The translations under genes and the position numbers were made by a program. A stretch of 45,137 bases of DNA from an uncultured Bacteroidota bacterium. Its GTDB lineage: Bacteria; Bacteroidota; Bacteroidia; Chitinophagales; LD1. Position 1 is the first letter of the stretch. Each line of letters starts with the position of its first letter. The stretch lies in NCBI GenBank assembly GCA_903861145.1, contig CAIOTH010000091.1, positions 1 to 45,137 of the forward strand, written 5' to 3'. The notes beneath the pieces are model-generated. The model was not told the DNA's origin and did no database searches. It saw nothing but the letters and a program-made list of their open reading frames with translations. Of this stretch, positions 21,803 through 45,137 are shown piece by piece.

Positions 21803-23662
21803 ATGGAAAAAGGTAATATCTCAGTTTCAACCGAAAACATTTTCCCCATTATTAAAAAGTTCTTATACAGCGAGCATGATATTTTTATGCGCGAACTGGT
21901 AAGTAATGCTGTTGATGCAACCACCAAACTGCGCAAGCTGGCGCAAATGGGCGAAGTCCCCGGCGAGCAGGGCGAATTATATGTGGAAGTAATTTTAGAT
22001 AAAGAGGCCAAAACTCTTACCATTCGCGACCGCGGTATTGGTATGACCGCCGATGAAATAAAGAAGTATATTAACACCATTGCCCTTTCGAGTGCCGAGG
22101 AGTTTATTAAAAAATTTGAGGGTACCGATAAGGCCGGCATTATCGGGCATTTTGGCCTGGGTTTTTATTCGGCATTTATGGTGGCCGACCAGGTTGAGAT
22201 TTTTACAAAAAGCTACAAACCCGAACCCGCTGTGCACTGGACCTGCACCGGCACTACCGAATTTGAACTGCACCCATTTGATAAAGCCGACCGTGGTACT
22301 GATGTGGTGCTGCACATTAACGACGAGTCGAAAGAATACCTGGAGGAGAACAAAATCAAGGAAATACTTGAGAAGTATTGCAAGTTTATACCAATCAATA
22401 TCCGCTTTGGTACCGAGGAGGTTGAACTGGAAGAAAAAGACGCTGACGGAAAGCCACTTAAGCAAACCGTGCCGCATATTATCAATAATACAACACCCGC
22501 CTACATTAAAGCACCTGCCGAACTGAAGGACGAGGACTACACTAAATTTTATAATGAACTGTATCCCTTCAGCGAGGCCCCCCTGTTTTGGATTCACGTT
22601 AATACCGATTTCCCATTCAACCTTAAAGGGATATTATACTTCCCCAAATACAAGCCAAACACCGAGCTTAACCGAAATAAAATACACTTGTATTGCAACC
22701 AGGTTTTTGTTACCGATTCGGTAGAGCAAATAGTGCCCGAATTTTTGACCCTGCTGCAAGGTGTTATTGATTCGCCCGATATTCCTTTAAATGTATCGCG
22801 CAGTTACCTGCAGGGCGACCCGAACGTTAAAAAGATATCGCAGCACATAGTAAAAAAAGTGGCCGATAAGCTGCTTGAAATTTTTAATACCGACCGCCCT
22901 TCGTTCGAGCAAAAATTGGAGAGCCTGGGGATGTTTGTAAAATATGGTATGCTAAGCGATGATAAGTTTTACAACACTGCACAAAAGTTTTGCCTGTTTA
23001 AAAACACCGAGGATAAAAGCTACACTTTTGACGAGTTGAAAGAGCACACCCAATCTCTTCAAAAAGATAAACACGGAAAACTGGTGCAACTATACACTAC
23101 CAACCCCGAAACACAACACACCTATATACACAATGCGCAAAGCTATGGGTACGAAGTATTGCAAATGGATGCTTATATCGACCAGCACTTTATTCAGTTT
23201 TTAGAAAGCAAGCATAGTGATGTAACCTTTAAGCGGGTTGATGCCGATACCTTGAATAAGCTGATTGAAAAGGAAGACGAAGCCGCATCGTTGCTAAGCA
23301 AAGAAGAAGAGGAAACATTAAAATCGCTGTTTACCGGTGTGGTTGATAATACGCATGCGCAGGTTGAGTTAAAGCCACTATCGCCGGGCGAAGTGCCTGT
23401 GCAAATTACCAAAAGCGAATTTATGCGCCGGATGAGCGACATGAGCCGCATGGGTGGCAACCAGTACGCATTTTTGGGCGATATGCCCGAGCAGATGAAT
23501 GTTGTAATAAACACCAATCACCCATCGGTAAAAAAGCTATTGGCTGAAAACAACACCGGTCATGCACGCCAGTTGTACGATTTGGCTCTATTGGCACAGG
23601 GCATGCTAAAAGGCAAAGCCCTTACCGAATTTATACATCGCAGTGTTGGCGAATTGAGCTAA
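21803..23662 (+). CDS. htpG: Molecular chaperone HtpG (Hsp90), 619 aa
   Basis: HtpG is the bacterial Hsp90, an ATP-driven cytoplasmic dimer that remodels client proteins. The N-terminal GHKL ATPase has all motifs: FLRELVSNA-type helix (IFMRELVSNAVDAT, Glu and Asn), DRGIGM, and GIIGHFGLGFYSAFMVAD. The middle domain includes the catalytic-loop region NVSRSYLQGD. The C-terminal dimerisation region ends FIHRSVGELS. The length matches the family (about 610-630). Bacteroidota versions carry an acidic stretch like EEVELEEKDADGK before the middle domain, as here. Regulation probably involves the sigma-54-like promoter and palindrome just upstream. Confidence 0.97.
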   Translation: MEKGNISVSTENIFPIIKKFLYSEHDIFMRELVSNAVDATTKLRKLAQMGEVPGEQGELYVEVILDKEAKTLTIRDRGIGMTADEIKKYINTIALSSAEEFIKKFEGTDKAGIIGHFGLGFYSAFMVADQVEIFTKSYKPEPAVHWTCTGTTEFELHPFDKADRGTDVVLHINDESKEYLEENKIKEILEKYCKFIPINIRFGTEEVELEEKDADGKPLKQTVPHIINNTTPAYIKAPAELKDEDYTKFYNELYPFSEAPLFWIHVNTDFPFNLKGILYFPKYKPNTELNRNKIHLYCNQVFVTDSVEQIVPEFLTLLQGVIDSPDIPLNVSRSYLQGDPNVKKISQHIVKKVADKLLEIFNTDRPSFEQKLESLGMFVKYGMLSDDKFYNTAQKFCLFKNTEDKSYTFDELKEHTQSLQKDKHGKLVQLYTTNPETQHTYIHNAQSYGYEVLQMDAYIDQHFIQFLESKHSDVTFKRVDADTLNKLIEKEDEAASLLSKEEEETLKSLFTGVVDNTHAQVELKPLSPGEVPVQITKSEFMRRMSDMSRMGGNQYAFLGDMPEQMNVVINTNHPSVKKLLAENNTGHARQLYDLALLAQGMLKGKALTEFIHRSVGELS

Positions 23663-25432: not shown

Positions 25433-25578
25433 TTCTGAGGTATCATTTTCACCTTAAATATAAAAATATGTTCGGGTTTAGTCTATCGTCAACTACTCTC
25501 GCGACCAATCTCCCCATTTGTATTTACATTCGCACACCAAGGCACAATATTTACAAACCCTATCCGTCTCACATCAAT

Positions 25579-26928
25579 ATGGAAACAGCAACTGCGACAC
25601 AACTTCCGCCGGGCCCAAAGGGCAACCTGGTATTCAGGCCACCGGTCGATTTACGCAACAAAACGCACCTGTTTATACAGTGGATGGCCGATAACTACGG
25701 CGATATAAGCCGCGCAAAGGCGGGCCCGTTTAGTTTTGTGTTTCTCTCAAAACCCGAGGCGATAGAGCACATGTTTCTTACCCGCGATGTTTATGTAAAA
25801 ATGAACGAGGGCAGCCAGCTTAAATATTTATTGGGCAACGGCTTGCTTACCAGCGAAGGCGAGTTTTGGTTGAAGCAGCGCCGGTTAATGCAGCCCCTGT
25901 TTCATAAGCAGCGCCTGCACGGCTTTGTGCAAAAAATTGCTGATGCCACCAATACCATGATGCACGATTGGGAAGAGCGCAACATGAGCGTGCCCGATTT
26001 TTACCGCGAAATGAACCAGCTAACACTGGACATTGTAGGCCGCACCCTGCTAAGCACCGACCTAAAGGGCGACTTTGCCAAAGTAAACCGCGCCATGACG
26101 GCTGTGCTTGAAAGCGTAAACAAAAAACGCGGACGCATATTTCGCATACCGGCGTGGGTGCCGCTTCCTTCGCAAATAAGGCTGGCGCGCAGCCGTAAGG
26201 TGTTGGAAGAAACCATTGCCGAAATTATTACCAACCGCCGTAACGACACCCGCCATTTTGATGACTTGCTCTCGATGTTGCTGGAGGTTGAAGATGCCGA
26301 CACGGCAGAGCGCATGAGCGATAAACAACTGCGCGATGAGGTACTCACCATTTTTATTGCGGGACACGAAACTACGGCCAACGCTTTGGCATTTACTTTC
26401 TACCTGTTAGCCAAACACCCCGATGTAAAAAAGCGCATGCAGCAGGAAGTAGCGCAGGTTTTAAACGGCGCCGAATTAACCTACGAGCTTTTAAACAAGC
26501 TGGAGTATACCACCATGGTTATTAAAGAATCGATGCGCCTTTACCCTCCCGCCTGGGTTACCGTGCGCGAAGCGGCAAAGGATGATGTAATTGACGGCTT
26601 TCAGATTAAGCAACTCGATAAAGTGGTTGTATCGCCATACGCCATGCAGCGCAGTAAAAAATACTGGCACCAGCCCGATACCTTCGACCCTGAGCGGTTT
26701 AATGCCGAGAATATTAAAAGCATACCGAAGTTTGCGTATTTCCCGTTTGGCGGAGGTGCCAGGCTGTGCATAGGCAACAACTTTGCCATGATGGAAATGC
26801 AAATTGTAATGGCCCTGATGTGCAACAAATTCGACTTTACACTACCTGTGGATTTTGAAGTAGAAACCCAACCCTTTATAACCTTAAGGCCTAAGGACGG
26901 AGTGCCTTTGAGGTTTGTGCGGAGGTAG
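25579..26928 (+). CDS. Cytochrome P450, 449 aa
   Basis: This is a heme monooxygenase with all class motifs: I-helix AGHETT (residues 261-266), K-helix ExxR (Glu317-Arg320, KESMRLYPP), and heme-binding loop FPFGGGARLCIGNNFAM with proximal Cys397. I chose the ATG at 25579, since the 37 residues before it in the longer frame are not P450-like and the resulting 449 aa is the usual length. No membrane anchor or fused reductase is present, so it is a soluble enzyme needing separate electron donors, none of which are nearby. It resembles fatty-acid/xenobiotic-type bacterial P450s. The substrate is unknown. Confidence 0.95.
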   Translation: METATATQLPPGPKGNLVFRPPVDLRNKTHLFIQWMADNYGDISRAKAGPFSFVFLSKPEAIEHMFLTRDVYVKMNEGSQLKYLLGNGLLTSEGEFWLKQRRLMQPLFHKQRLHGFVQKIADATNTMMHDWEERNMSVPDFYREMNQLTLDIVGRTLLSTDLKGDFAKVNRAMTAVLESVNKKRGRIFRIPAWVPLPSQIRLARSRKVLEETIAEIITNRRNDTRHFDDLLSMLLEVEDADTAERMSDKQLRDEVLTIFIAGHETTANALAFTFYLLAKHPDVKKRMQQEVAQVLNGAELTYELLNKLEYTTMVIKESMRLYPPAWVTVREAAKDDVIDGFQIKQLDKVVVSPYAMQRSKKYWHQPDTFDPERFNAENIKSIPKFAYFPFGGGARLCIGNNFAMMEMQIVMALMCNKFDFTLPVDFEVETQPFITLRPKDGVPLRFVRR

Positions 26929-26998
26929 GGCATTAGTTTGTATGGTGGTTGATACAGCCGCAACAGCGCATGAAAAAGGCTAATCGACTTTTTTTAAA

Positions 26999-27006
26999 TA
27001 TCTTTG
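26999..27006 (+). promoter_or_regulatory. -7 box TATCTTTG upstream of the MNT/HEPN pair
   Basis: TATCTTTG fits TAnnTTTG and ends eight bases before the chosen ATG at 27015. No upstream TTG at the expected spacing was seen. Confidence 0.35.
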
Positions 27007-27014
27007 TAGTTGTA

Positions 27015-27314
27015 ATGCTAACCAAAACCGAAATATTACTTTTCCTTAGTAAGAATAAGGCCTATTTGCACAAGCAATTTTGTGTTGAGAAAATAGGTTT
27101 ATTTGGTTCGTTTGCGCGTGATGAGGCAAACGAAAAAAGTGATATTGATTTTTTGGTTGAGATTGATGCTCCTTTAGAAGTTTATAAAGAAACCAAAGAA
27201 GCTCTACATAATTATCTAAAAAGTGCCTTTGGCCGAGAAGTTGATCTGGCTAATCCCAAATCTTTAAAGCCGCATTATAAAGAAAGGATTTTAAAACAAG
27301 CTCTTTATGCCTGA
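27015..27314 (+). CDS. MNT-type nucleotidyltransferase antitoxin (MntA-like), 99 aa
   Basis: The ATG at 27015 is chosen over an in-frame upstream ATG at 26949, because the family begins a few residues before GLFGSFARDEANEKSDIDFL. The minimal nucleotidyltransferase motif is intact: GSFAR (residues 31-35), Asp43 and Asp45 (DID), and a third acidic residue in REVDL (Asp77). In studied pairs such proteins add AMP units to the tyrosine of the HEPN partner and so neutralise it. The gene overlaps the HEPN gene by eight bases, supporting translational coupling. The sequence is more AT-rich than its surroundings, consistent with horizontal acquisition. Confidence 0.9.
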   Translation: MLTKTEILLFLSKNKAYLHKQFCVEKIGLFGSFARDEANEKSDIDFLVEIDAPLEVYKETKEALHNYLKSAFGREVDLANPKSLKPHYKERILKQALYA

Positions 27315-27651
27315 AGAGCGGGACAAAGCAAATATAGAGGAAGTGTTTTATGCCATTGGGCATATTGAAAAATACCTGGCAAATATTTTATCGATTGAAG
27401 ACTTGCTTGATAATACGATGGCTTATGACGCTGTAATGATGAACTTTATTTTGATTGGTGAGGCATGCAAGCGTTTAAGCGATAAATTTAAAAGTGAAAA
27501 TGCTCAAATTGATTGGGGAGGAATAAACAGCTATAGGAATTTTATTGCTCATGAGTACTTTGGTGTGGATGAAAAAATAGTTTGGCGAACAATCATGATC
27601 GAATTGCCGAAATTGAAAAAGGCCCTTCAGGACATTATAAACGGAGGTTAA
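27307..27651 (+). CDS. HEPN-domain RNase toxin (HepT/DUF86-like), 114 aa
   Basis: HEPN proteins of this type are RNases. The active motif RX4HXY is present as Arg77, His82 and Tyr84 (YRNFIAHEYF), the tyrosine being the residue that MNT partners modify. The N-terminal helices (IEEVFYAIGHIEKYLANIL) and the IGEACKRLS helix match the DUF86 group. The length is typical (about 110-115). It overlaps the antitoxin gene by eight bases in ATG...TGA order and makes a complete type VII toxin-antitoxin pair. Confidence 0.9.
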   Translation: MPEERDKANIEEVFYAIGHIEKYLANILSIEDLLDNTMAYDAVMMNFILIGEACKRLSDKFKSENAQIDWGGINSYRNFIAHEYFGVDEKIVWRTIMIELPKLKKALQDIINGG

Positions 27652-27861: not shown

Positions 27862-28869
27862 CTACTTCTTCGCCTTACTACTTTTCTCTTTAGGTGTTGG
27901 CTGTCCTTTACCGGTGGTTATTAATTGCAGTAGGCTTTGTTGAATGTATTCGCCCCAGGCATTAGCGCAACCGCCGAAGCATTCTAGTTTTGGTATAAGG
28001 CCAATGTGCTTAAACGCTACCTGTGTTTTTTTGCCTTTGCTGCTTATTTCGAAACTTAGCTTGGTGCCGGTCCATTCGGTTTTGTTGCCTTTTAGCCAGT
28101 GCTTGTAGCAATCGGTTACCAGCCAAACAACTTTGGTATCGGACACAAACTCTACCACCTGCATGGTCATAAATGTTTCACCAAAGGTTACGGTAAATTC
28201 ATCTTTCAGCTTAAGGTTTTTACCCTTGGTATTTTCTGTCCACCAACCGGTAACATTGTTAATGGCTTTAAATGCTTGCTTAGGTGTTTGGTCTATTAAA
28301 ATGGCGGTGGTGTAATCGTTACTTTTTTTGTTACCGGGTTTGGGTTTTTCAACTACTGCACCGGGTTCGGTATCCAGCTTCCATTTTTCTACAAGCTTTG
28401 CATCAAAGCCGCTTTTTAGCTTGGCATTGGGTTGGCCTTTACCGGTGGTTACAAGCTGCTTTAAGCTTTCGGTTATATAAAAGGTCCATGCTTCGCGGCA
28501 TATATCGTAACATTCATATTGAGGCACCAGGCCGTGGTGGGTAAACTTTATTTCGGTTTTGCCACCTTTTTCTGCAATGTCAAATACCAGTTTTGTTCCC
28601 TTCCATTCGCTCTTATCTTTCGTAAATTTAAAGTAGTTGTCCAATACCAGCCAAACCACTTTTTTGTTGGGCACCAATTCAACCAGTTTCATTTTGCTTA
28701 AATGAACATCTTTATAATGGTAGAAAAACTCATCGTTCAGTTTTTCAGTATCCCCTTCAATTTCTTCCGACCACCACCTGCTGATATTAATAATGGCCTT
28801 GAAAGCTTGCGGAGGGGTTTTATCTACAACTATTGTGGCCGTATAACTTTGCGCTGTTTTTGTTTTCAT
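27862..28869 (-). CDS. Tandem SRPBCC (AHSA1-like) protein, two domains with C-x3-C motif, 335 aa
   Basis: Two homologous SRPBCC domains occupy residues about 8-150 and 185-325. Each starts 'Y.TAI..D.TP..AFKAI.N...WW', has a 'LV..VPNKKVVWLV' or 'VV..VSDTKVVWLV' strand, a 'W.GTKL.F.I...G.KT...F.H.GL' block and ends at 'TTGKGQP'. SRPBCC proteins bind hydrophobic ligands in a deep cavity. This subfamily has a conserved cysteine pair in each domain (ECYDICREAW and ECFGGCANAW), shared with 36444-36878 and 36888-37337. The linker and tail are lysine-rich. It is divergent from a GlxA-type regulator. No membrane or signal segment is seen. Confidence 0.85.
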   Translation of the reverse strand: MKTKTAQSYTATIVVDKTPPQAFKAIINISRWWSEEIEGDTEKLNDEFFYHYKDVHLSKMKLVELVPNKKVVWLVLDNYFKFTKDKSEWKGTKLVFDIAEKGGKTEIKFTHHGLVPQYECYDICREAWTFYITESLKQLVTTGKGQPNAKLKSGFDAKLVEKWKLDTEPGAVVEKPKPGNKKSNDYTTAILIDQTPKQAFKAINNVTGWWTENTKGKNLKLKDEFTVTFGETFMTMQVVEFVSDTKVVWLVTDCYKHWLKGNKTEWTGTKLSFEISSKGKKTQVAFKHIGLIPKLECFGGCANAWGEYIQQSLLQLITTGKGQPTPKEKSSKAKK

Positions 28870-28889
28870 GGTTTTGAAATTTTGTAATG

Positions 28890-28897
28890 CAAAGATA
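28890..28897 (-). promoter_or_regulatory. -7 box TATCTTTG for the tandem SRPBCC gene
   Basis: On the minus strand TATCTTTG lies 20 bases before the ATG at 28869. No TTG at the standard spacing was seen. Confidence 0.35.
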
Positions 28898-28945
28898 TTG
28901 TCTGAATACCAACTTTAAGGGGTGCAAAATAGACTATTTGACGGG

Positions 28946-28976
28946 TTGATTTAGACATACATAATTATTACCTTTG
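28946..28976 (+). promoter_or_regulatory. Promoter of the GlxA-type regulator gene, probably leaderless
   Basis: TTG (28946-28948) is followed after 20 bases by TACCTTTG (28969-28976), a full match to the Bacteroidota pattern. The ATG at 28981 lies only four bases beyond the box, so the mRNA probably starts at or next to the initiation codon. Confidence 0.55.
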
Positions 28977-28980
28977 TTGC

Positions 28981-29964
28981 ATGAAACATTTAACCATTGT
29001 AGTACCCGAGGGCGAAAACAATTTAAGCAGCATTGTAGGCGCCTACAAAATATTTACGCGCGCCAACGAGTATTGGAAGAAAAACGGGCGCAGGCAATTG
29101 TTTGATATACAGTTAGCAGGCATTTCGAAAAAGGTTGATTTTTATGAAGGCTTATTTACAGTAAAGCCGCACACCCACATTGAGGATATAGCAAAAACAA
29201 ACCTCATCATCATTCCATCGCTGAACCACAATTATGAGAAAGCGGTAAAAGAAAACCAGGTGCTAATTGATTGGATTGCCCAACAATATAAAAACGGGGC
29301 CGAAATAGCCAGTATTTGCACCGGTGCATTTTTGCTTGCCTCAGCGGGCCTGCTGAATGGGAAGAGTTGCTCAACACATTGGTCGGCAGCCGAACATTTC
29401 AGGGTAATGTTTCCTCAAGTGAATTTGCAGGCCGACCAGTTAATTACCGATGAAAACGGTATTTACACCAATGGCGGGGCGTATTCGTTTTTAAACCTGG
29501 TTATTTATTTGGTTGAGAAATATTACGACCGGCAAACGGCCATTTTTTGCGCCAAGGTTTTTCAAATTGATATTGACCGCAAAAGCCAATCGGCGTTTAC
29601 AATATTTACCGGGCAAAAATTGCATGGCGATGAAATGGTAAAAAAAGTGCAGGCGTTTATTGAAGGCAACCCACACCAAAAAATTTCGGTGGAAGATTTG
29701 TCGGCTAAATTTTCAATTGGCCGCCGCACGTTTGACCGCAGGTTTATTAAAGCCACCGGCAACACGCCGCTTGAATATTCGCAACGGGTTAAAATCGAAT
29801 CTGCCAAAAAGGCCCTTGAAAGCACCCGCAAAACGGTTAACGAAGTGATGTATGAAGTAGGATATTCGGATGTAAAAGCGTTTCGCGAAGTGTTTAGAAA
29901 AATTACGGGTATGTCGCCGTTAGAGTACAAAGGCCGGTATAACAAAGAATCGGTTTTGATTTAG
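28981..29964 (+). CDS. GlxA-family AraC transcriptional regulator with DJ-1/PfpI-like domain, 327 aa
   Basis: Residues about 1-195 form a DJ-1/PfpI-like domain: VVPEGENNLSSIVGAYKIF, LIIIPSLNHN, and a nucleophile-elbow-like ASICTGAFLLASAGLL with STHWSAAEHF after it. Residues about 220-320 form a two-helix-turn-helix AraC/XylS DNA-binding domain (SVEDLSAKFSIGRRTFDRRF and VNEVMYEVGYSDVKAFREVF, ending MSPLEYKGRY). In GlxA-type proteins the first domain senses a ligand and is usually not enzymatic. The divergent tandem SRPBCC gene is the most likely target. The promoter suggests a leaderless mRNA. Confidence 0.92.
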   Translation: MKHLTIVVPEGENNLSSIVGAYKIFTRANEYWKKNGRRQLFDIQLAGISKKVDFYEGLFTVKPHTHIEDIAKTNLIIIPSLNHNYEKAVKENQVLIDWIAQQYKNGAEIASICTGAFLLASAGLLNGKSCSTHWSAAEHFRVMFPQVNLQADQLITDENGIYTNGGAYSFLNLVIYLVEKYYDRQTAIFCAKVFQIDIDRKSQSAFTIFTGQKLHGDEMVKKVQAFIEGNPHQKISVEDLSAKFSIGRRTFDRRFIKATGNTPLEYSQRVKIESAKKALESTRKTVNEVMYEVGYSDVKAFREVFRKITGMSPLEYKGRYNKESVLI

Positions 29965-30204
29965 TTAAGCCCCACTGTGGGCTCCGGATTACCACAAGCA
30001 TCGAAAATAGAAATTAACAAGCATTTGTTATATATTGCAACAGGCTTAGCTGCTCCAAAACTTGTAACACCCTGAGGGGCAATAAGTCAGATTTTTATAT
30101 ACTTTTGATTCCCACAGACGTAGTCGCATTTTTAATGCAATTAAACTGCCCCCAAACTACCTCCCGTTTTTTAGAATTTAATATTTTTTTATAATCTGAT
30201 TTTT

Positions 30205-33200
30205 ATGGTGATAAGCAAGAGATTAACCGGCATTTTATTTATGCTGAACGTATGTTGCGGTTTAGTGATGGCCCAGGCCCCTCAACAAATAAATTACCAG
30301 GCAATTGTGCGCAATGCCGCGGGTAACCCTTTAGCCAATGGCAGCAACGTGAGCATTCGCTTTCAAATACATGATCAAACTCCCACAGGTACTGTGGTTT
30401 TTCAGGAAAGGGGCATCGTTATTACCAACCAGTTAGGCCTGGTAAACTATGCAATCGGTTCGTCAAGCAACCTTGCATCGGTGGACTGGAGTAACGGGCC
30501 TAAATACCTGGAGGTAGATATAGACCCCACGGGCGGAAATAGTTTTACCGAAATGGGCACGTCGCAACTGCTCAGTGTTCCTTATGCTTTGTTTGCGGGC
30601 AACAGTGCCGCGGGGACGCCGGGCCCCACAGGTATTACGGGTAACAATGGCTTAACCGGAGCTACCGGAGTTACTGGAACCGCCGGTACCAACGGAACAA
30701 CAGGAGCAACCGGTGCTACAGGAGCTTCCGGAATCAACGGTGCTAACGGCAACGCAGGAGCAGCCGGGATTACCGGGGCTACAGGCTTTACCGGAAATGC
30801 GGGTACCAATGGTGTAACAGGCGCCACCGGACCATCCGGAAGTAATGGCAACAATGGCGTTACTGGGACAACCGGTGCTACAGGTGTACCGGGTAATAAT
30901 GGCGCCACAGGCGCTACCGGTACCGGGTTACAAGGCGTACCGGGAGTTACAGGCCTCACAGGTGCCACAGGAACAGGAGCCCAGGGTGTTACAGGTGCCA
31001 CAGGTGCAGGGGGCGGAGCAACAGGCCCAACAGGTGTAACCGGCCCTTCGGGAAGTAATGGAACTAATGGCGTTACGGGGGCAACAGGTGCTACCGGCGC
31101 AACGGGTATTACAGGAACATCGGGAACCAACGGTTCTAACGGAACTACTGGAGTAACCGGGTTTACGGGCGCCACAGGCCCAACAGGTGCTTCGGGAAGT
31201 AATGGAATTAATGGCGTTACGGGAGCAACAGGTGCTACCGGCACAACGGGTATTACCGGAACATCAGGAACCAACGGTTCTAATGGAACTACCGGGGTAA
31301 CCGGGCTTACCGGCGCAACAGGCAATAACGGGAACGATGGAGCAACCGGTGCAACCGGTGCAGGGGGCGGTGCCACAGGCCCAACAGGTGTAACCGGCGC
31401 TTCGGGAAGTAATGGAACTAATGGCGTTACGGGAGCAACAGGTTCTACCGGCGCAACGGGTATTACAGGAACATCGGGAACCAACGGTTCTAACGGAACT
31501 ACTGGAGTAACCGGGTTTACGGGCGCCACAGGCCCAACAGGTGCTTCGGGAAGTAATGGAACTAATGGCGTTACGGGAGCAACAGGTGCTACCGGAGCAA
31601 CGGGTATCACCGGAACATCAGGAACCAATGGTTCTAATGGAACTACCGGGGTAACCGGGCTTACCGGCTCAACGGGCAATAACGGGAACGATGGAGCAAC
31701 CGGTGCCACAGGTGCAGGGGGCGGTGCCACAGGCCCAACAGGTATAACCGGCGCTTCGGGAAGTAATGGAACGAACGGCGTTACGGGAGCAACAGGTGCT
31801 ACCGGCGCAACGGGTATTACCGGAACATCAGGAACCAATGGTTCTAACGGAACTACTGGCGTAACCGGGTTTACCGGGCCAACGGGTGCAACCGGCGATA
31901 CCGGCAATAATGGCGCCACAGGCATAACCGGTGCTACCGGTGCAGGACTTCAAGGTGCAACAGGTGTTACCGGCGCTTCGGGAAGTAATGGAACGAATGG
32001 CGTTACTGGTGCAACAGGTGCTACCGGCGCAACGGGTGTTACAGGAACATCAGGAACCAATGGTTCTAATGGAACTACCGGGGTAACCGGGCTTACCGGC
32101 GCAACAGGCAATAACGGAAACGATGGAGCAACCGGTGCAGGGGGCGGTGCCACCGGCCCAACAGGTGTAACCGGCGCTTCGGGAAGTAATGGAACGAATG
32201 GCGCTACGGGAGCAACAGGTGCTACCGGCGCAACGGGTATTACCGGAACGTCAGGAACCAATGGTTCTAATGGAACCACAGGTGTAACCGGGCTTACAGG
32301 ACCAACGGGTGCAAGCGGCGATACAGGCAACAATGGCGCCACAGGCACAACCGGCGCTACCGGCGCGGGACTTCAAGGAGCAACCGGGCTAACAGGTGTA
32401 ACCGGTGCTTCGGGAAGTAATGGAACTAATGGCGTTACGGGAGCAACAGGTGCTGCCGGCGCAACGGGTATTACCGGTACTGGGTTACAAGGCACAACAG
32501 GGGTTACAGGCCTCACGGGTTCTGCCGGTGCAACAGGTAATACCGGCAACGATGGTGCTACTGGTGCCACCGGTTCAACGGGAGCCGGAATTCAGGGAGC
32601 TACGGGGGCTACAGGTACAGGTGGTGGGGCAACAGGCCCTACAGGTCCAACCGGAGCAACCGGATTACTGTCAAATGGTAGTTCAGCCGGTAACACCCCG
32701 TATTGGAACGGAAGCAACTGGATAGTTAACAATAGTAATATTTACAATAATGGCGCTAATGTTGGCATTGGCACTACATCCCCGGGTGCTACACTGGGGA
32801 TTAACGGTTCGTTAGCCACCACGCCGGCAGGCACTATCGCTGTAACAAACGGTGCCCTGCTTGCCTCGTCGGCCACTATCTCGGCCACCAGTTATATCTT
32901 AATTTCTTCAACCATTCCGGCAGCAGCGAATGCGGTTTTTTACCTGCCTGCAGGCACTGCCGGGCAGCGTTTAATCATTCAGCTGGCTAATACAATTAAT
33001 CAGGCGCGGTTGCCCAGCGATTCGGTTATTGCAGGTGCCGTACCGTGCCGGTTAAACAATGGCTTAAATATGAATTTCATAACCAATAACGCCAATATAT
33101 CTTTGATTTACGACGCCATAAATACGCAATGGGTTGAAACGGGCCGCACTCTGGCAAGCCCTATACTGGTGGTTTCGCATGGCTCGGTTAATTACACCTC

Positions 33201-33990
33201 GGCGTCTAACAACACATTTACTGTACCGGTTGGTATAAGCACCATTACTATTGATATGGCGGGTGCCGGTGGCGGACAAAGCTACGCTTTGGCGATAGGC
33301 GGAACGGGTGGTAGCGGGGCGCGCATCAGGGCTACTTTAGCAGTTAACGGGGGCGATGTTTTATACCTTAACGTAGGCGGCGTGGGTGCAACACCTGTAA
33401 ACAGCCTTAGTACAGCCGCCGGTGGCACCGGTGGTATAGCAGGCGATGCAAGCGGTGGTATAGGTTGGGGAAGTGCGCGCACAGATTATTCTACCACTCC
33501 GGGCTTTGGGGCAGGTGGCGGCGGCGGCGGTGCAAGCGATATACGCGTGAATAGTACCGCCCTGGGCAATACCGTTTTAATGGCCGGCGGCGGTGGTGGT
33601 TCGGGAGCAACTGCGGGCGCACAGGTTAATGGCGGCAATGGCGGACAGCCAGGCACCAATGGCGGTAATTCAAATTCGTCTTCCGAATCAGGGTTAAAGG
33701 GAACCGCAACTTTAGGCGGTGCTGCAACCTTGTACGACCAATGCCCTAAAGGCGAACCGACCAGCGGAGCAGGAACCCTTGCCCGTGGCGGAAATGGCAG
33801 CGAAGCAACCGACGCAGCTTGTAGCTACGAAGGTGGCGGCGGCGGCGGTGGCGGCTACTACGGCGGTAGCGGCGGCAGTGGCGGCGGCGGCGGCGGCGGA
33901 TATAGCTATACCGGTGGTTCAGGAGTTTCGGGAATAACCGTAACCGCAGGTTACCAGGCAGGCGACGGGTATATTAAAATTACCTATTAA
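30205..33990 (+). CDS. Collagen-like secreted protein with higher-order repeats and glycine-rich tail, 1,261 aa
   Basis: After a signal peptide comes the shared module [16 protein letters not shown]... (residues about 25-135). Then about 680 residues of Gly-X-Y triplets follow, dominated by GAT, GVT, GIT, GTT, GTN and GSN, a low-proline, Thr-rich bacterial collagen style. A beta region (residues about 820-1010) and a glycine-rich C-terminal domain ([20 protein letters not shown] to DGYIKITY) complete it; the latter resembles glycine-rich domains of surface proteins. A trimeric fibre on the cell surface is inferred. No S74 or T9SS tail is present. The collagen part contains 354-bp repeat units with one extra Gly each. 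The same region is open on the opposite strand only because of its repetitive composition. Confidence 0.87.
31021..31728 (+). repeat. Two tandem 354-bp higher-order repeat units in the collagen-like gene
   Basis: The same boundary string (acaggcccaacaggt) begins at 31021 and 31375, exactly 354 bases apart, and a close variant (acaggcccaacaggta) at 31729. Each unit encodes 118 residues: 39 Gly-X-Y triplets plus one extra Gly in the GAGGGAT segment. Within a unit the block [16 protein letters not shown] occurs twice, followed alternately by FTG and LTG. This block occurs seven times in the protein. Later copies are rearranged. Confidence 0.75.
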
Positions 33991-34022
33991 CAATCGCAAT
34001 AACACTTCAATAATAAATATCG

Positions 34023-34059
34023 CATAATCGGGTGTAGCCGCAGGCTGCGCCCGATTATG
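34023..34059. terminator. Long palindrome between the collagen-like gene and the YadA-repeat gene
   Basis: CATAATCGGG (34023-34032) and CCCGATTATG (34050-34059) are perfect arms around a 17-base loop that can extend the stem (CCGCAGG inside). It lies between two convergent genes and could end both transcripts. No T-run follows on either strand. Confidence 0.4.
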
Positions 34060-34206
34060 CCTATAGCCCCAAATGGCCCTTGTTTGTAACGAAGGGCAAA
34101 CCGGCTAATGTATTTATAGTGCGTCTTAAATGCAGCTGTTGTCCCCGCTGATTGAAGTTGAGGCGCTGAGCCACTTCAACCTAAAATCTTATCTGTTTGT
34201 AGCTTA

Positions 34207-35427
34207 TTAAATCCGGCGCAGGCGTGTGATAAAATCAAGCCCTTTTACATCGTCCTGAATATCGCGTTTGACCCGTGCATCAGAGTAGGTACTCCATGTT
34301 ACATTCCCTCCGTTCCATACGGTACCTGTACCCCCTATAAATGCCTGGTTAGATGCGCCATTTAAATAAGTATCGTTACCAATACTGATAGTATGATCGA
34401 AATTGTCGGTAGTGCCCGCCGCATAACCAATGGCAATATTGTAGCATCCTGTTGCATTATTATAAAGAGTGCCATTGCCCAAAGCGGTATTTTCATTGCC
34501 GCCGGTATTTGACTGAGCTGCATTGATACCAATGGCGGTGTTCCCATTGCCGTTGGTATTTTTCAATGCATTCATGCCTACGGCGGTATTAAAATCGCCA
34601 TTACCAGCACCTAATGCAGATACCCCTACGGCGGTGTTTTGAAAACCTACACTTAGACTGCTAAGCGCAGCCGTGCCTATGGCTGTGTTGTTATCGCCCG
34701 CACTGCCTTGCAGCGCATTGACGCCCATGGCAGTATTATAGCTGCCAGACACGTTGGAGGCTAGAGCAAACAGGCCCATGGCAGTATTATTTCCCCCGGT
34801 TTCGTTGCTGCTTAATGCCCGGTACCCGAAGGCGCTATTATATGTACCCGATACATTTGTCTCAAGGCCTTGATAGCCAAAAGAAGTAGTGTATAATAAA
34901 CCCGGGGGCTCAATTCTTCCCGCAGGCCAACCCCATACTTTAAAATTTAGAGGTTTTATATCGGTGGTGCCAATAAAATTAAGACTATCGACTGTTGCGG
35001 TGTTACCGGTTAAACTCCAGGCACTGGCAGCGCTTCCCGCATTTAATGCGTAAGGTACACTCAACAGCTGGGTGGTGCCCATGTCAACAAAATTTGTTCC
35101 CCCTGCAACATCTACCGAAACCTGTAAAAACTTGTTTCCCGAGCTCCAGATTACGACAGCCAGGCTGCTGTCGGTGCCAATTTGAGCGGTGGCCAGGCCA
35201 AATTGGTTGGTGGTGGCGGTATCGGTTTCGGTAAACACCGAAGTACCGGTTGCGGTGCCATCGTGGATTTGGAACTGAAAGTTAACCAGGGTGCCTGCAA
35301 CCGGTTGCCCCTGCGTATTACGCACTACAGCCTGGTAGTTCATTAATTGAGGGGCCTGCGCTTTTATTGTGGTGTATTGACAGATTGCTATTAAAATAAC
35401 GCCAATAAATGTATATGTGTGTTTCAT
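34207..35427 (-). CDS. Surface protein with shared N-terminal module, YadA-like repeats and truncated S74 domain, 406 aa
   Basis: The signal peptide (FIGVILIAICQYTTIKAQ) and the APQLMNYQAVVRNTQG module (residues about 25-135) match the genes at 17596 and 30205. Residues about 195-345 contain nine YadA-head-like repeats of the form 'NTA.G..AL' (NSAFGYRAL, NTAMGLFAL, NTAMGVNAL, NTAIGTAAL and so on), which build a trimeric beta-roll. The C-terminus begins an S74 chaperone domain with the dyad Ser382 and Lys387 (YSDARVKRDIQDDVKGLDFI), but stops 20 residues later at LRRI. Full-length S74 domains need about 100 more residues, so folding assistance is probably lost. The sequence after the stop has no clear continuation. 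Confidence 0.82.
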   Translation of the reverse strand: MKHTYTFIGVILIAICQYTTIKAQAPQLMNYQAVVRNTQGQPVAGTLVNFQFQIHDGTATGTSVFTETDTATTNQFGLATAQIGTDSSLAVVIWSSGNKFLQVSVDVAGGTNFVDMGTTQLLSVPYALNAGSAASAWSLTGNTATVDSLNFIGTTDIKPLNFKVWGWPAGRIEPPGLLYTTSFGYQGLETNVSGTYNSAFGYRALSSNETGGNNTAMGLFALASNVSGSYNTAMGVNALQGSAGDNNTAIGTAALSSLSVGFQNTAVGVSALGAGNGDFNTAVGMNALKNTNGNGNTAIGINAAQSNTGGNENTALGNGTLYNNATGCYNIAIGYAAGTTDNFDHTISIGNDTYLNGASNQAFIGGTGTVWNGGNVTWSTYSDARVKRDIQDDVKGLDFITRLRRI

Positions 35428-35617
35428 GGTGTATGTTTTACCCTGATTGAATGGAGAACAAAATACAACAGAATTTCAAATACAAAAGATTTATTTATGT
35501 GTGGCTTGTTGCACGGCTTCCGCTTCGACCGCCGCCGCGGTTTAGCGCTGCACAACCCCGCGTGCGAAGCAGGAGGCTTATTAAATCGATTATTTTTTTT
35601 TAAATCTGCCTGAAAAT

Positions 35618-35666
35618 TTGTTTAGTAACTTTTAAGTTACGTATATTTGCGTAACCTAAAAGTTAC
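35618..35666 (+). promoter_or_regulatory. Promoter bracketed by two palindromic operators for the SRPBCC/ArsR operon
   Basis: TTG (35618-35620) and TATATTTG (35642-35649) are 21 bases apart. A palindrome GTAACTT-TT-AAGTTAC (35625-35640) fills the space between them. A second, GTAAC-CTAAAA-GTTAC (35651-35666), starts two bases after the second box. Bound protein at either would block RNA polymerase. The ArsR-type regulator encoded second in the operon is the obvious candidate for autorepression. Confidence 0.65.
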
Positions 35667-35671
35667 CTATT

Positions 35672-36094
35672 ATGCAAAAGGAAATTAAACACACCTGGCA
35701 CTTTAACCAGTCGCCGCAAGTGGTTTGGGAATATTTAACCAAACCCGAACTGCTGGAACAATGGCTGATGAAATCGGATTTTCAGCCTATAGTGGGGCAC
35801 AAATTTAAATTCATCGGTAATTGCAATGATGACGGCAAAGCCGCCGCGCTGTGCGAAGTAATGGAGATAAAACCCTATACCCGGGTTTCGTATTCATGGC
35901 AAACCAATTCACTAACCGATAATAAGCCATTCAACTCGAAGGTGGTGTGGACACTTATTCCCAACGATAAGGGAACGGAATTGCGATTAGTGCATGATGG
36001 GTTTACAATGCTGGAGGACGTTGTTGCACACAATGATGGCTGGACCCGAATTGGAAACAAAATGGTTGAGTTTTTAAATGTGGTAAAAATATGA
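35672..36094 (+). CDS. SRPBCC (AHSA1-like) protein, 140 aa, first gene of the operon
   Basis: The protein is an AHSA1-type SRPBCC domain: IKHTWHFNQSPQVVWEYLTK, PELLEQWLMKSDFQPIVGHK, then VSYSWQ strands and ELRLVHDGF near the end, closing with the helix DGWTRIGNKMVEFLNVV. Such small domains bind ligands and often accompany ArsR regulators. It lacks the C-x3-C motif of the other SRPBCC genes here, so it is a different subfamily. Its stop overlaps the start of the ArsR gene by four bases (ATGA), which indicates translational coupling. Confidence 0.9.
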   Translation: MQKEIKHTWHFNQSPQVVWEYLTKPELLEQWLMKSDFQPIVGHKFKFIGNCNDDGKAAALCEVMEIKPYTRVSYSWQTNSLTDNKPFNSKVVWTLIPNDKGTELRLVHDGFTMLEDVVAHNDGWTRIGNKMVEFLNVVKI

Positions 36095-36417
36095 CCGCAC
36101 AAACGCCGGATGCCTTCCAGGTAATTGCCGACCCGAGCCGCAGGCAAATGATGCAACTACTTTCTAAGGACAGTATGACCATAAATGCCTTGGCTGAAAA
36201 TTTTGATATGAGCCGGCCCGCAGTTTCGAAGCACATAAAAATAATGTACAACGCGGGCTTTATTTCTATAACAGATATTGGCCGCGAACGTTATTGCACC
36301 TTGAAACAAGAAGGCTTTAACGAGTTGCAGGATTTTATTGACTACTTCGATAAATTCTGGATAGGTAAACTCAAAAAGTTAGAAACGCTTTTAAACAACA
36401 AATCGAAAGAGAAGTAA
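36091..36417 (+). CDS. ArsR-family winged-helix transcriptional repressor, 108 aa
   Basis: The winged helix-turn-helix is clear: FQVIADPSRRQMMQLLSKDS, then MTINALAENFDMSRPAVSKH and KIMYNAGFISITDIGRERYC. It ends in a dimerisation helix (FIDYFDKFWIGKLKKLETLL). No metal-binding cysteine pair is in the usual alpha-3 position, so it belongs to the group of ArsR regulators paired with SRPBCC proteins rather than to metal sensors. It probably represses its own operon through the palindromes at 35625-35666. Confidence 0.93.
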   Translation: MTAQTPDAFQVIADPSRRQMMQLLSKDSMTINALAENFDMSRPAVSKHIKIMYNAGFISITDIGRERYCTLKQEGFNELQDFIDYFDKFWIGKLKKLETLLNNKSKEK

Positions 36418-36443
36418 GTAACAACAATTTAAAGCACCGCAAA

Positions 36444-36878
36444 ATGCAAAACAATAATTACACCGCAATCATCGAGGTGGCGAAATCGCCGGAGTATGTT
36501 TTCAATTGCATCACTGATGTATCAAAATGGTGGAGCAAAGATTTTGAAGGCAGCAGCGCAGAGCTGAATGATGAATTTGTTATTAATCACCCCGATAAGC
36601 ATTATTCAAAACAGAAACTGGTTGAGGTTATACCTAACAAGAAAATTGTTTGGCTTGTGACTGATAGTAAACTGAGTTGGCTTGAAAAAGATAAGCAGGA
36701 GTGGACCAACACAAAAATGATTTTTGAGATAAGCACCCGGGGCGATAAAACCGTGCTGCACTTTACGCACGAGGGGCTTGTAACCCAAAAAGAATGTTAT
36801 GTAAACTGCGAGCGTGGATGGAATATGGTTATTAAGGATTGGCTTTTCAATTTTATAACTATTGGTAAATCGATTTAA
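36444..36878 (+). CDS. SRPBCC protein with C-x3-C motif, 144 aa
   Basis: The protein matches a single domain of the tandem protein at 27862-28869: NYTAIIEVAKSPEYVFNCIT, WWSKDFEG, VEVIPNKKIVWLVTDSK, WTNTKMIFEISTRGDK and FTHEGLVTQKECYVNCERGW. The cysteine pair (C-Y-V-N-C) is in the same place as in the tandem protein. It follows the ArsR gene by 26 bases and is probably part of the same operon. The ligand is unknown. Redox or metal binding by the cysteines is only a possibility. Confidence 0.87.
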   Translation: MQNNNYTAIIEVAKSPEYVFNCITDVSKWWSKDFEGSSAELNDEFVINHPDKHYSKQKLVEVIPNKKIVWLVTDSKLSWLEKDKQEWTNTKMIFEISTRGDKTVLHFTHEGLVTQKECYVNCERGWNMVIKDWLFNFITIGKSI

Positions 36879-36887
36879 AACTTTTGA

Positions 36888-37337
36888 ATGATGGAAACAA
36901 GGAACGATTTCAATTGCAGTATATCTGCAACGATCAACGCCGGTGAGGCGATTAAAAGAATTAGCAATATACCCGACTGGTGGGGAGTAACCTTTAGCGG
37001 AAGTTCTGAAAAACAGAATGATACGTTTGTAATAAAGATGGGGGGTGATTCCTTCTTTAATTTTACTGTGGCTGAGATAATTCCCAACAAAAAAATTGTT
37101 TGGCTTGTTACCGATTGCAATATGCCCTGGTATGCAGATAAAAAGGAATGGACCAATACAAAATTAATTTTTGAACTAACCGAGAACCTCGGCATAACAA
37201 ACCTGAGTTTTACGCATGAGGGGCTTACACCTGATGTTGCGTGTTACAAGGATTGTAAACCGGGATGGACGCATTGGATCACAAGAAGTTTATTCTCGTA
37301 TTTCACCACAGGGGTAGGTGATTTTAAGCAGCGTTAA
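36888..37337 (+). CDS. SRPBCC protein with C-x3-C motif, second copy, 149 aa
   Basis: The last gene of the operon, nine bases after the previous one. It repeats the fold: FNCSISATINAGEAIKRISN, PDWWGVTFSG, VAEIIPNKKIVWLVTDCN, WTNTKLIFELTENLG, FTHEGLTPDVACYKDCKPGW. Two ATG codons (36888 and 36891) are adjacent; either may be used. With the previous gene it makes a split counterpart of the fused two-domain protein at 27862-28869, suggesting the two subunits or domains pair. Confidence 0.86.
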   Translation: MMETRNDFNCSISATINAGEAIKRISNIPDWWGVTFSGSSEKQNDTFVIKMGGDSFFNFTVAEIIPNKKIVWLVTDCNMPWYADKKEWTNTKLIFELTENLGITNLSFTHEGLTPDVACYKDCKPGWTHWITRSLFSYFTTGVGDFKQR

Positions 37338-44647: not shown

Positions 44648-45137
44648 TTATTCATAAAGGTATGGCTCGTTGGCTATGGCTAACTGCCGGATGTTTTCCG
44701 CAACTCTTTTCATGTAAATCCTCCAAAAGGTTTTTGTAAACAGCCAGTTTAGGGGGTATAGCAAAGCAATGGCGGAGTGCATGGTATAGGTGTAGGTAAT
44801 AAGAATTTTGCCCGGTTCAATTTCGGTGGTGGCCCACTCGCCTACAAATTTTGAAAACCCGAACATGGCAAACTTAAAATCGCTGACCTCAATTTTCCAA
44901 TACTTGTTTTGAATGCGTTCTATCACCTTGTCAACAAAAGCCCAGCCTCCTTTTTGTGTTAGCGACTTAGCAACAAATATTTTTTTGCCATAACCGGGTT
45001 TGCCCCAATGCTGGTCATCGGTGCTGTGCGTTACCCGTGGCATAATGCCGGCAAAACCGGTGTGCACTTTTGAAACATCGCAAAGCATGGGTGTTTTAAA
45101 TGCTCTTTCCAACGAGCAATTGTAGATGGTTGTTATT
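44648..45137 (-). CDS. SRPBCC / polyketide-cyclase-like protein, N-terminus beyond the window
   Basis: The frame is open to the window edge; the residues before the only internal start candidate (ITTIYNCSLERAFKTPMLCD) already match the start of the SRPBCC fold ('I.....I..P...VF....D'), so the true start lies past 45137. Later parts include WKIEVSDFKFAMFGFSKFVG, EWATTEIEPGKILITYTYTM and a final helix KTFWRIYMKRVAENIRQLA. This resembles SRPBCC proteins without the C-x3-C motif. The ligand is unknown. It lies upstream of norC on the same strand with a 136-base gap holding the norC promoter. Confidence 0.8.
   Translation of the reverse strand, partial: ITTIYNCSLERAFKTPMLCDVSKVHTGFAGIMPRVTHSTDDQHWGKPGYGKKIFVAKSLTQKGGWAFVDKVIERIQNKYWKIEVSDFKFAMFGFSKFVGEWATTEIEPGKILITYTYTMHSAIALLYPLNWLFTKTFWRIYMKRVAENIRQLAIANEPYLYE

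Follow-up and report, generated by a model that had tools for sequence, protein, structure and literature searches.

The window analysed here covers positions 1-45,137 of contig CAIOTH010000091.1 of an uncultured Bacteroidota bacterium (assembly GCA_903861145.1). Three of its genes encode four SRPBCC/AHSA1 domains of START type which belong to a distinct AHSA1/START subfamily with a near-invariant cysteine pair and the signature His-Cys-Cys. It is tentatively proposed that these proteins are START effectors in which the His-Cys-Cys cluster contacts a ligand, and that they are paired in their own genome.

Two-cysteine START domains of the window

The pattern F.H.GL.{5}C.{3}C.{3}W is common to the four domains, two of which are fused in the 27862-28869 protein while 36444-36878 and 36888-37337 encode one each (Table 1). 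The initial annotation had written this motif with four residues between GL and the first cysteine; the pattern is indeed present, but the spacing is five. His109, Gly111, Leu112, Cys118, Cys122 and Trp126 are invariant in the alignment of the four domains (residue numbering is that of the 36444 protein throughout unless stated). In this alignment, the 36444 domain is 37-46% identical to the other three, and only the four window domains matched when the 36444 protein was searched against the whole 4.70-Mb assembly at E<=1, so that they are homologous and not alike by chance. All three START genes are open frames at the positions given in Table 1.

The fused protein matched the AHSA1 family (Pfam PF08327) with 29.5 bits, above the cut-off of 22.1, and the two single-domain proteins also passed it; no NCBIfam family was above its cut-off for any of the three. 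Ten AHSA1 matches were found in the genome, three of which are the two-Cys family; when the family profile was run at E<=1e-3, none of the remaining seven (L133-L139) was reported as a separate row. As stated in the initial annotation, the cysteines are absent from the other SRPBCC proteins recognised in the window. Both lack the pair: 35672-36094 reads HDGF...HNDGW in the motif region, and 44648-45112, which matched Polyketide_cyc2 with 22.3 bits (below the cut-off of 27.4), is without the motif.

Table 1. Features of the two START loci in the window (aa, amino acids).
Feature	Position	Strand	Basis or remark
Fused two-domain SRPBCC/AHSA1 protein	27862..28869	-	335 aa; N-half clade C, C-half clade D
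C-half motif (Cys297, Cys301, Trp305)	27955..28014	-	coordinates by arithmetic
N-half motif (Cys120, Cys124, Trp128)	28486..28545	-	coordinates by arithmetic
TATCTTTG, matches TAnnTTTG, 5' of fused gene	28890..28897	-	sequence
Predicted direct-repeat operator TGTCYAAATCAACCC-N7-AGTCYATTTTRCACC, 37 bp	28921..28957	-	conservation; 0 in 100 shuffles
GlxA-type regulator, divergent from fused gene	28981..29964	+	PF01965 46.0 bits, HTH_18 72.9 bits
Palindrome GTAACTTTTAAGTTAC, probable ArsR operator 1	35625..35640	+	predicted
Promoter element TATATTTG between palindromes	35642..35649	+	matches TAnnTTTG
Palindrome GTAACCTAAAAGTTAC, probable ArsR operator 2	35651..35666	+	predicted
Ordinary AHSA1 protein, first gene of operon	35672..36094	+	AHSA1 77 bits; 3' end overlaps ArsR start
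ArsR-family regulator	36091..36417	+	NF033788 66.3 bits, cut-off 55
Two-Cys START protein, clade A	36444..36878	+	144 aa; AHSA1 35.2 bits, cut-off 22.1
Motif of 36444 protein (Phe107-Trp126)	36762..36821	+	alignment; coordinates by arithmetic
Two-Cys START protein, clade B	36888..37337	+	149 aa; AHSA1 29.2 bits, cut-off 22.1
Motif of 36888 protein (Phe108-Trp127)	37209..37268	+	alignment; coordinates by arithmetic

Conservation of the cysteine pair

Relatives were collected from a genome collection with two search patterns, neither of which includes the cysteines; the scan gave 307 relatives, the best 80 being kept. By hand count, 78 of these 80 loci are titled Bacteroidota, and L018 is a gammaproteobacterial metagenome-assembled genome. 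Among 60 near genomes searched, 12 matched, own genome included. Keeping only rows of 120 residues or more and each distinct domain once, with the window's own four among them, gave a set of 184 domains from both sources. Cys-Cys-Trp is present in 160 of them, and 16 have neither cysteine or a gap.

An even survey of 395 Bacteroidota genomes gave matches in 59 of them at E<=1e-5, own genome included. His-Cys-Cys occurs in 42 of the 42 survey domains above 60 bits and in 1 of the 32 at or below 60 bits (2 of these 32 do not cover the motif), the split having been chosen after a gap between 55 and 65 bits was apparent. Profile A1 was built from four Cys-Cys domains and its scores thus favour Cys slightly, and three low-scoring places (G182, G412 and the second G145) are left out of these domain counts. 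The initial annotation had suggested a family-wide alignment to see whether both cysteines are invariant; by the counts above, they are not variable across the family.

The low-scoring survey domains, referred to as sister type, are mostly of the His-Phe-Cys or His-His-Ser/Thr kind. Cys118 is generally not kept in them, while His109 and a Cys, Ser or Thr at position 122 mostly are. On such sequence comparison, an ancestral state with His109 and a small polar residue at 122 seems likely, and Cys118 appears to mark the subfamily. The pair also occurs beyond Bacteroidota: a plasmid search returned six records from Alphaproteobacteria and Actinomycetota, 4/6 with both cysteines. The plasmid proteins of Rhizobium, Embleya, Tsukamurella and Leisingera have the full motif and those of Nitratireductor and Streptomyces are of the sister type. 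A literature search over titles and abstract openings found nothing on a two-Cys START subfamily. Two START copies, in L102 (G013:C70:75895-76317) and L022, are broken by an in-frame stop and may be decaying copies or assembly errors.

Clades and pairing of the domains

A FastTree tree of 251 domains was rooted on the sister-type rows; several of its deeper branches are weak. The window domains fall into clade A (36444; 61 rows including a sister class E, support 0.98), clade B (36888; 16 rows, support 1.0), clade C (N-half of 27862; 97 rows, support 0.82) and clade D (C-half of 27862; 6 rows, support 0.99). The A-B pair, which is split in the window, is a single fused frame in L005 and L036 and, with the order reversed, in L041. 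In L085 and L087 C and D form one fused gene; L088 has them as separate genes in the order D-C. The initial description of a pair fused at one locus and split at another is thus borne out in other genomes, where the same two partners recur in either form. Two or more domains were found in 60 of 79 genome-collection loci (the 80 kept minus L022, whose frame is broken by the stop), fused in 24 and split in 36. The other 19 have one counted domain, which is an upper bound because identical domains were counted once (L044 lost its second domain in this way).

Class E has Tyr109 in 16/16 domains and neither cysteine by definition, so that only Tyr109 is an independent feature. In 15 of the 16 cases the class E domain has an A domain as direct neighbour or fusion partner; the sixteenth (L044) lies beside a second family domain. 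The combination of class E with A looks like an active domain with a partner that lacks the His-Cys-Cys trio; it forms one clade and perhaps reflects one event. The counts of 192 and 190 out of 197 domains leave class E out, and become 192 and 190 of 213 when it is included.

Fusions of other composition were also observed. In L105, L106 and L132 a two-Cys domain is fused in one frame to an ordinary AHSA1 domain as second half, which mirrors the AHSA1 gene heading the window operon. L116:1486-2418 is one gene in which a two-Cys domain is fused to a sister-type START domain (Glu118, Cys122).

Regulators and predicted operators

The initial annotation had placed each locus next to a regulator, GlxA-type or ArsR, and both gene order and operator-like sites tie the two loci to these genes. 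The GlxA-type regulator consists of a DJ-1/PfpI domain followed by an AraC helix-turn-helix (HTH) domain. It scored 163.4 against the FtrA equivalog, not reaching the cut-off of 425, and its DJ-1-type domain has a Cys of its own (ICTGAF). In the other locus, the AHSA1 gene (35672), the ArsR gene (36091) and the two two-Cys START genes follow one another in the same direction, and the ArsR protein contains a single Cys, in RYCTL.

Gene calls covered L001-L104. Clade C/D loci with a recognised regulator have a divergent GlxA/AraC gene in 32/36 cases and ArsR/AHSA1 in 4/36, while those of clades A/B have ArsR/AHSA1 in 18/31 and an AraC gene in the same direction in 13/31, one example of the latter showing an AraC HTH and a sub-threshold DUF6597 match. 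A further 31 C/D loci (20 without gene calls) and 12 A/B loci (2 without) had no recognised regulator.

Conserved operator-like footprints, predicted to be candidate sites for the GlxA-type and ArsR regulators, lie at both loci. The predicted 37-bp direct-repeat operator on the GlxA side and the AHSA1-ArsR operon with its putative twin palindromes are new here. On the GlxA side, TGTCYAAATCAACCC-N7-AGTCYATTTTRCACC forms two direct repeats 22 bp apart. In 24 GlxA-START intergenic regions, the commonest spaced 5+5-mers, from which this sequence is read, occurred in 15, against at most 3 in shuffled sequence; L049, L100 and L101 do not fit this arrangement. The operator consensus was drawn from these 24 regions and was then found, at <=8 mismatches, in 42/68 C/D loci (a count that includes the training set), 1/42 A/B loci and 0/35 sister loci. 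At the same threshold it gave 56 hits in 1.18 Mb, duplicates and own genome included, and 0 in the reversed sequence. Of the 39 sites at <=5 mismatches that remained once 28 own or duplicate locus ids had been removed, 35 have a divergent GlxA gene as neighbour, and at 31 the first gene downstream encodes a two-Cys START protein.

Scans of the 395 and the 60 near genomes are wider tests, yet contain the own genome. The former gave 7 sites at <=3 mismatches (control 0), six of which precede a family gene, own included; at the seventh, in G283, a GlxA gene lies on one side and a DinB gene on the other. The latter gave 4 sites, own included, each at a START-GlxA module. The site at 28921-28957 is the single one in the own genome at <=3 mismatches. 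A second operator copy (3 mismatches) was seen at L047:1941-1977, 5' of a gene for a 126-aa protein of the SnoaL cluster (2119-2496).

At the ArsR locus, two GTAAC-N6-GTTAC palindromes, against 0.05 expected, flank a TAnnTTTG element. TAnnTTTG is the -7 promoter consensus of Bacteroidota. At <=3 mismatches the own genome contains a single such double site, and a palindrome site is present in 15/16 AHSA1-ArsR pairs of the collected loci, the reversed control giving 1/16. A G+C-rich repeat-like stretch was also noticed by eye in the intergenic region before this operon (35490-35590).

Fold and position of the cysteines

The single-domain model of the 36444 protein (predicted local distance difference test, pLDDT, 95.3; predicted template modelling score, pTM, 0.89) has a START/helix-grip fold. 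Its last strand (102-110) holds His109, and Cys118 is located just before the start of the C-terminal helix (119-140). The model of the fused protein shows two START domains, residues 7-142 and 186-319. In structure comparison, the 36444 model matched 2m89 with Z 16.0 (root-mean-square deviation 2.3 over 131 residues) and other AHSA1 and PYL structures with Z about 13-15, the onion LFS and PYL matches showing the fold only.

Those positions of the C-terminal helix that are conserved in the family share one face (conservation moment, permutation p 0.0135). On an ideal helix this face is centred on Trp126, and Cys122 is 42 degrees off. Residues 2-141 of the model aligned with residues 28-178 of PYR1 in 8ey0, and the PYL10 range was used likewise. 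If the last helix aligns without gaps, as the end-to-end ranges suggest, Cys122 falls at PYR1 Phe159. According to PMC9750858, Phe159 is a ligand-pocket residue, and it is also treated in PMC4333806. On account of the conserved helix face and this range match, the modelled His-Cys-Cys cluster would be placed at the mouth of the pocket.

Proposed function and alternative explanations

In the proposed effector, each domain would possess a helix-grip pocket, and His109 of the last strand together with Cys118 and Cys122 at the start of the C-terminal helix would line the pocket mouth and touch the ligand, most likely a small molecule that is bound or chemically handled through the thiols. In the window loci and many closer relatives the domains, as two genes or one fusion, would be paired and would probably form heterodimers, while elsewhere one domain would suffice. 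Production would be timed by dedicated regulators acting at their own operators: the GlxA type, ArsR or a third kind, an AraC regulator, that is found in other genomes.

This proposal is the one we favour, with the reserve that several observations weigh against it. Exactly one cysteine is lost, with Trp126 kept, in 8/184 domains (4 Cys-Val, 3 Ser-Cys and 1 Cys-Ser), and in 3/79 loci (L030, L042 and L044) none of the counted domains has both. On an ideal helix Cys118 lies 82 degrees away from the conserved face and is hence marginal, and the hydrophobic moment of the C-terminal helix is not significant (p 0.28). No GlxA operator was found at <=8 mismatches in 26/68 C/D loci. Domain packing is uncertain in the fused-protein model, whose pTM is 0.51, and an interface argument from it was dropped for this reason. 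In the even survey, two family domains occur in 4/38 loci with a domain above 60 bits, and 2 further loci of the 38 have a sister-type second domain. Pairing as a family-wide rule was therefore rejected, so that the term paired-domain used in the initial annotation suits the relatives of the window, where pairs recur, but not the whole family.

The first alternative is a metal site: Zn, Cu(I) or another soft metal would be coordinated by His109, Cys118 and Cys122, perhaps with help from Glu117. An i,i+4 cysteine pair at a helix start beside a conserved His would be a plausible three-ligand site, Glu117 is kept in 184/197 domains, and CxxxC copper proteins such as Sco exist. Nevertheless, the single losses of either cysteine are evidence against an obligatory two-Cys chelate, or a disulfide, in every member. 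Moreover, six C-clade domains have Gln109 with both cysteines kept, the adjoining ArsR has a single Cys, and no metal transporter, metal enzyme or redox partner was recognised among neighbour clusters of at least three loci, for which one example each was judged and some were Pfam-scanned. A metal site is thus considered unlikely.

A purely structural role, in which the two cysteines pack beneath Trp126 and are retained for folding or packing alone, is likewise unlikely. Such a role would agree with the Cys, Ser or Thr found at 122 in most sister domains, as expected of a small packing residue, and with the single-Cys members, which retain the surrounding consensus. Against it stands the near-invariance of the pair across phyla, which argues against mere packing: in alignment A2 the pair is kept at a mean column identity of about 41% (its rows were picked for both cysteines, whose invariance there is by selection), and its presence in other phyla as well exceeds the usual packing demand.

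A redox switch, in which a reversible Cys118-Cys122 disulfide opens or closes the pocket, appears quite improbable. CxxxC pairs at helix ends can, as in Sco, be redox-active, and the regulator's DJ-1-type domain carries its own Cys; but an i,i+4 disulfide strains a regular helix, and both the eight single losses and the neighbour clusters without a recognised redox partner speak against it.

Finally, the START proteins are most improbable as the sensor itself, controlling the adjoining regulator by protein contact. Linkage to three regulator types would agree with such a role, but the GlxA regulator has its own DJ-1 domain, and the START gene is preceded by the operator, which makes that gene a likely target. 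The term sensor of the initial annotation was accordingly abandoned: each of the two START loci is preceded by conserved operator-like sites for a regulator of its own, and the genes thus look like regulated outputs. From operator position and the regulators' own domains, the two-Cys START proteins are probably regulated effectors rather than sensors.

Comparison with known systems

The two-Cys proteins are a new branch, with its own signature and regulatory handle, of a known fold family. Proteins of the SRPBCC/AHSA1 type abound, and for most of them no function is known. This branch offers a strict testable signature, recurring partners (one without the trio) and predicted operators that name the regulators. 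Regulators and operators together provide a direct route to the inducer, and perhaps to the ligand, by reporter screen. If the dithiol pocket is real, it would bring thiol chemistry into a fold whose known ligands are mainly hydrophobic.

The closest solved protein is 2m89, 'Aha1 dimer from Colwellia psychrerythraea', which is AHSA1-like, has the same fold and is a dimer by title. It shares His, the second Cys and Trp with the window domains and is of the His-Phe-Cys kind; it differs in having Phe at the first-Cys column and NW, not GL, after the His. AHSA1-ArsR operons resemble the window locus in gene order and promoter palindromes, but the window locus continues in the same orientation with two more START genes, both of the two-Cys kind. 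DynU16 of the dynemicin locus, also of START fold, matched with Z 15.4 and 12% identity, its 269-residue chain being matched over 10-142. The PYR/PYL abscisic acid receptors have the same fold (Z about 13) at about 10% identity, and PMC9750858 describes the start of their C-terminal helix as lining the ligand pocket. PYR1 differs by the Phe at the position that the aligned ranges would match to Cys122.

Gene neighbourhood and hints of chemistry

No neighbour cluster beyond the regulators and AHSA1 exceeds 6 loci; a conserved enzyme partner was therefore rejected and no pathway assigned. The scanned cluster examples matched RibD_C, SnoaL_5, DinB_2, YCII and 3-dmu-9_3-mt in Pfam, and one 146-aa cluster looked VOC-like by eye with no Pfam match. 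A DinB gene is first behind the GlxA operator, with the START gene next, in L051 and L066 (by Pfam) and in L056 (by clustering), and in G283 a DinB gene stands alone behind it. One Leisingera protein is a fusion in which a glutathione S-transferase (GST) is followed by a two-Cys START domain (53 bits, HDGLRPSLLCYGICEAGW); residues 3-210 of the stretch include both the GST_N and the GST_C domain. When the whole GST-START protein was used as query against plasmids, coverage exceeded 80% in the Leisingera record only, and the fusion thus stands alone. Its gene (L199, Leisingera sp. S132 plasmid, record 45337-46500) lies beside a BhcR regulator and the bhcABC genes of the beta-hydroxyaspartate cycle.

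The Leisingera fusion is a hint of thiol chemistry; the DinB, SnoaL and GST associations are hints of small number that name no compound. A more specific scheme, which we regard as doubtful, is that the dithiol START pocket might capture a soft, thiol-reactive electrophile or metalloid, or pass it to a thiol transferase, while the AraC regulator with its DJ-1 domain would switch the START gene on and sense the same compound through its own Cys; the operator-linked DinB (thiol-transferase-like) and SnoaL genes and the GST fusion would then belong to the same detoxification.

An htpG gene (Hsp90, PF00183) is located at 21803-23662, about 4 kb from the fused AHSA1-type gene. An htpG homologue (E<=1e-10) is absent from the genes called in L001-L104, and for this reason the name 'activator of Hsp90' was not taken as function. 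The N-terminal Aha1_N domain of the Hsp90 co-chaperone Aha1 was not found either, since at E<=1 the three START proteins matched no Pfam family other than AHSA1.

Beside the fused gene, 26949-27651 encodes a toxin-antitoxin pair of MNT-HepT type, with a nucleotidyltransferase (PF01909) followed by a HepT-like protein (PF01934). The product of 25468-26928 is probably a cytochrome P450, judging by its heme-binding motif. Between the two START loci, 30205-33990 encodes a 1261-aa protein with long G-x-T collagen-like repeats.

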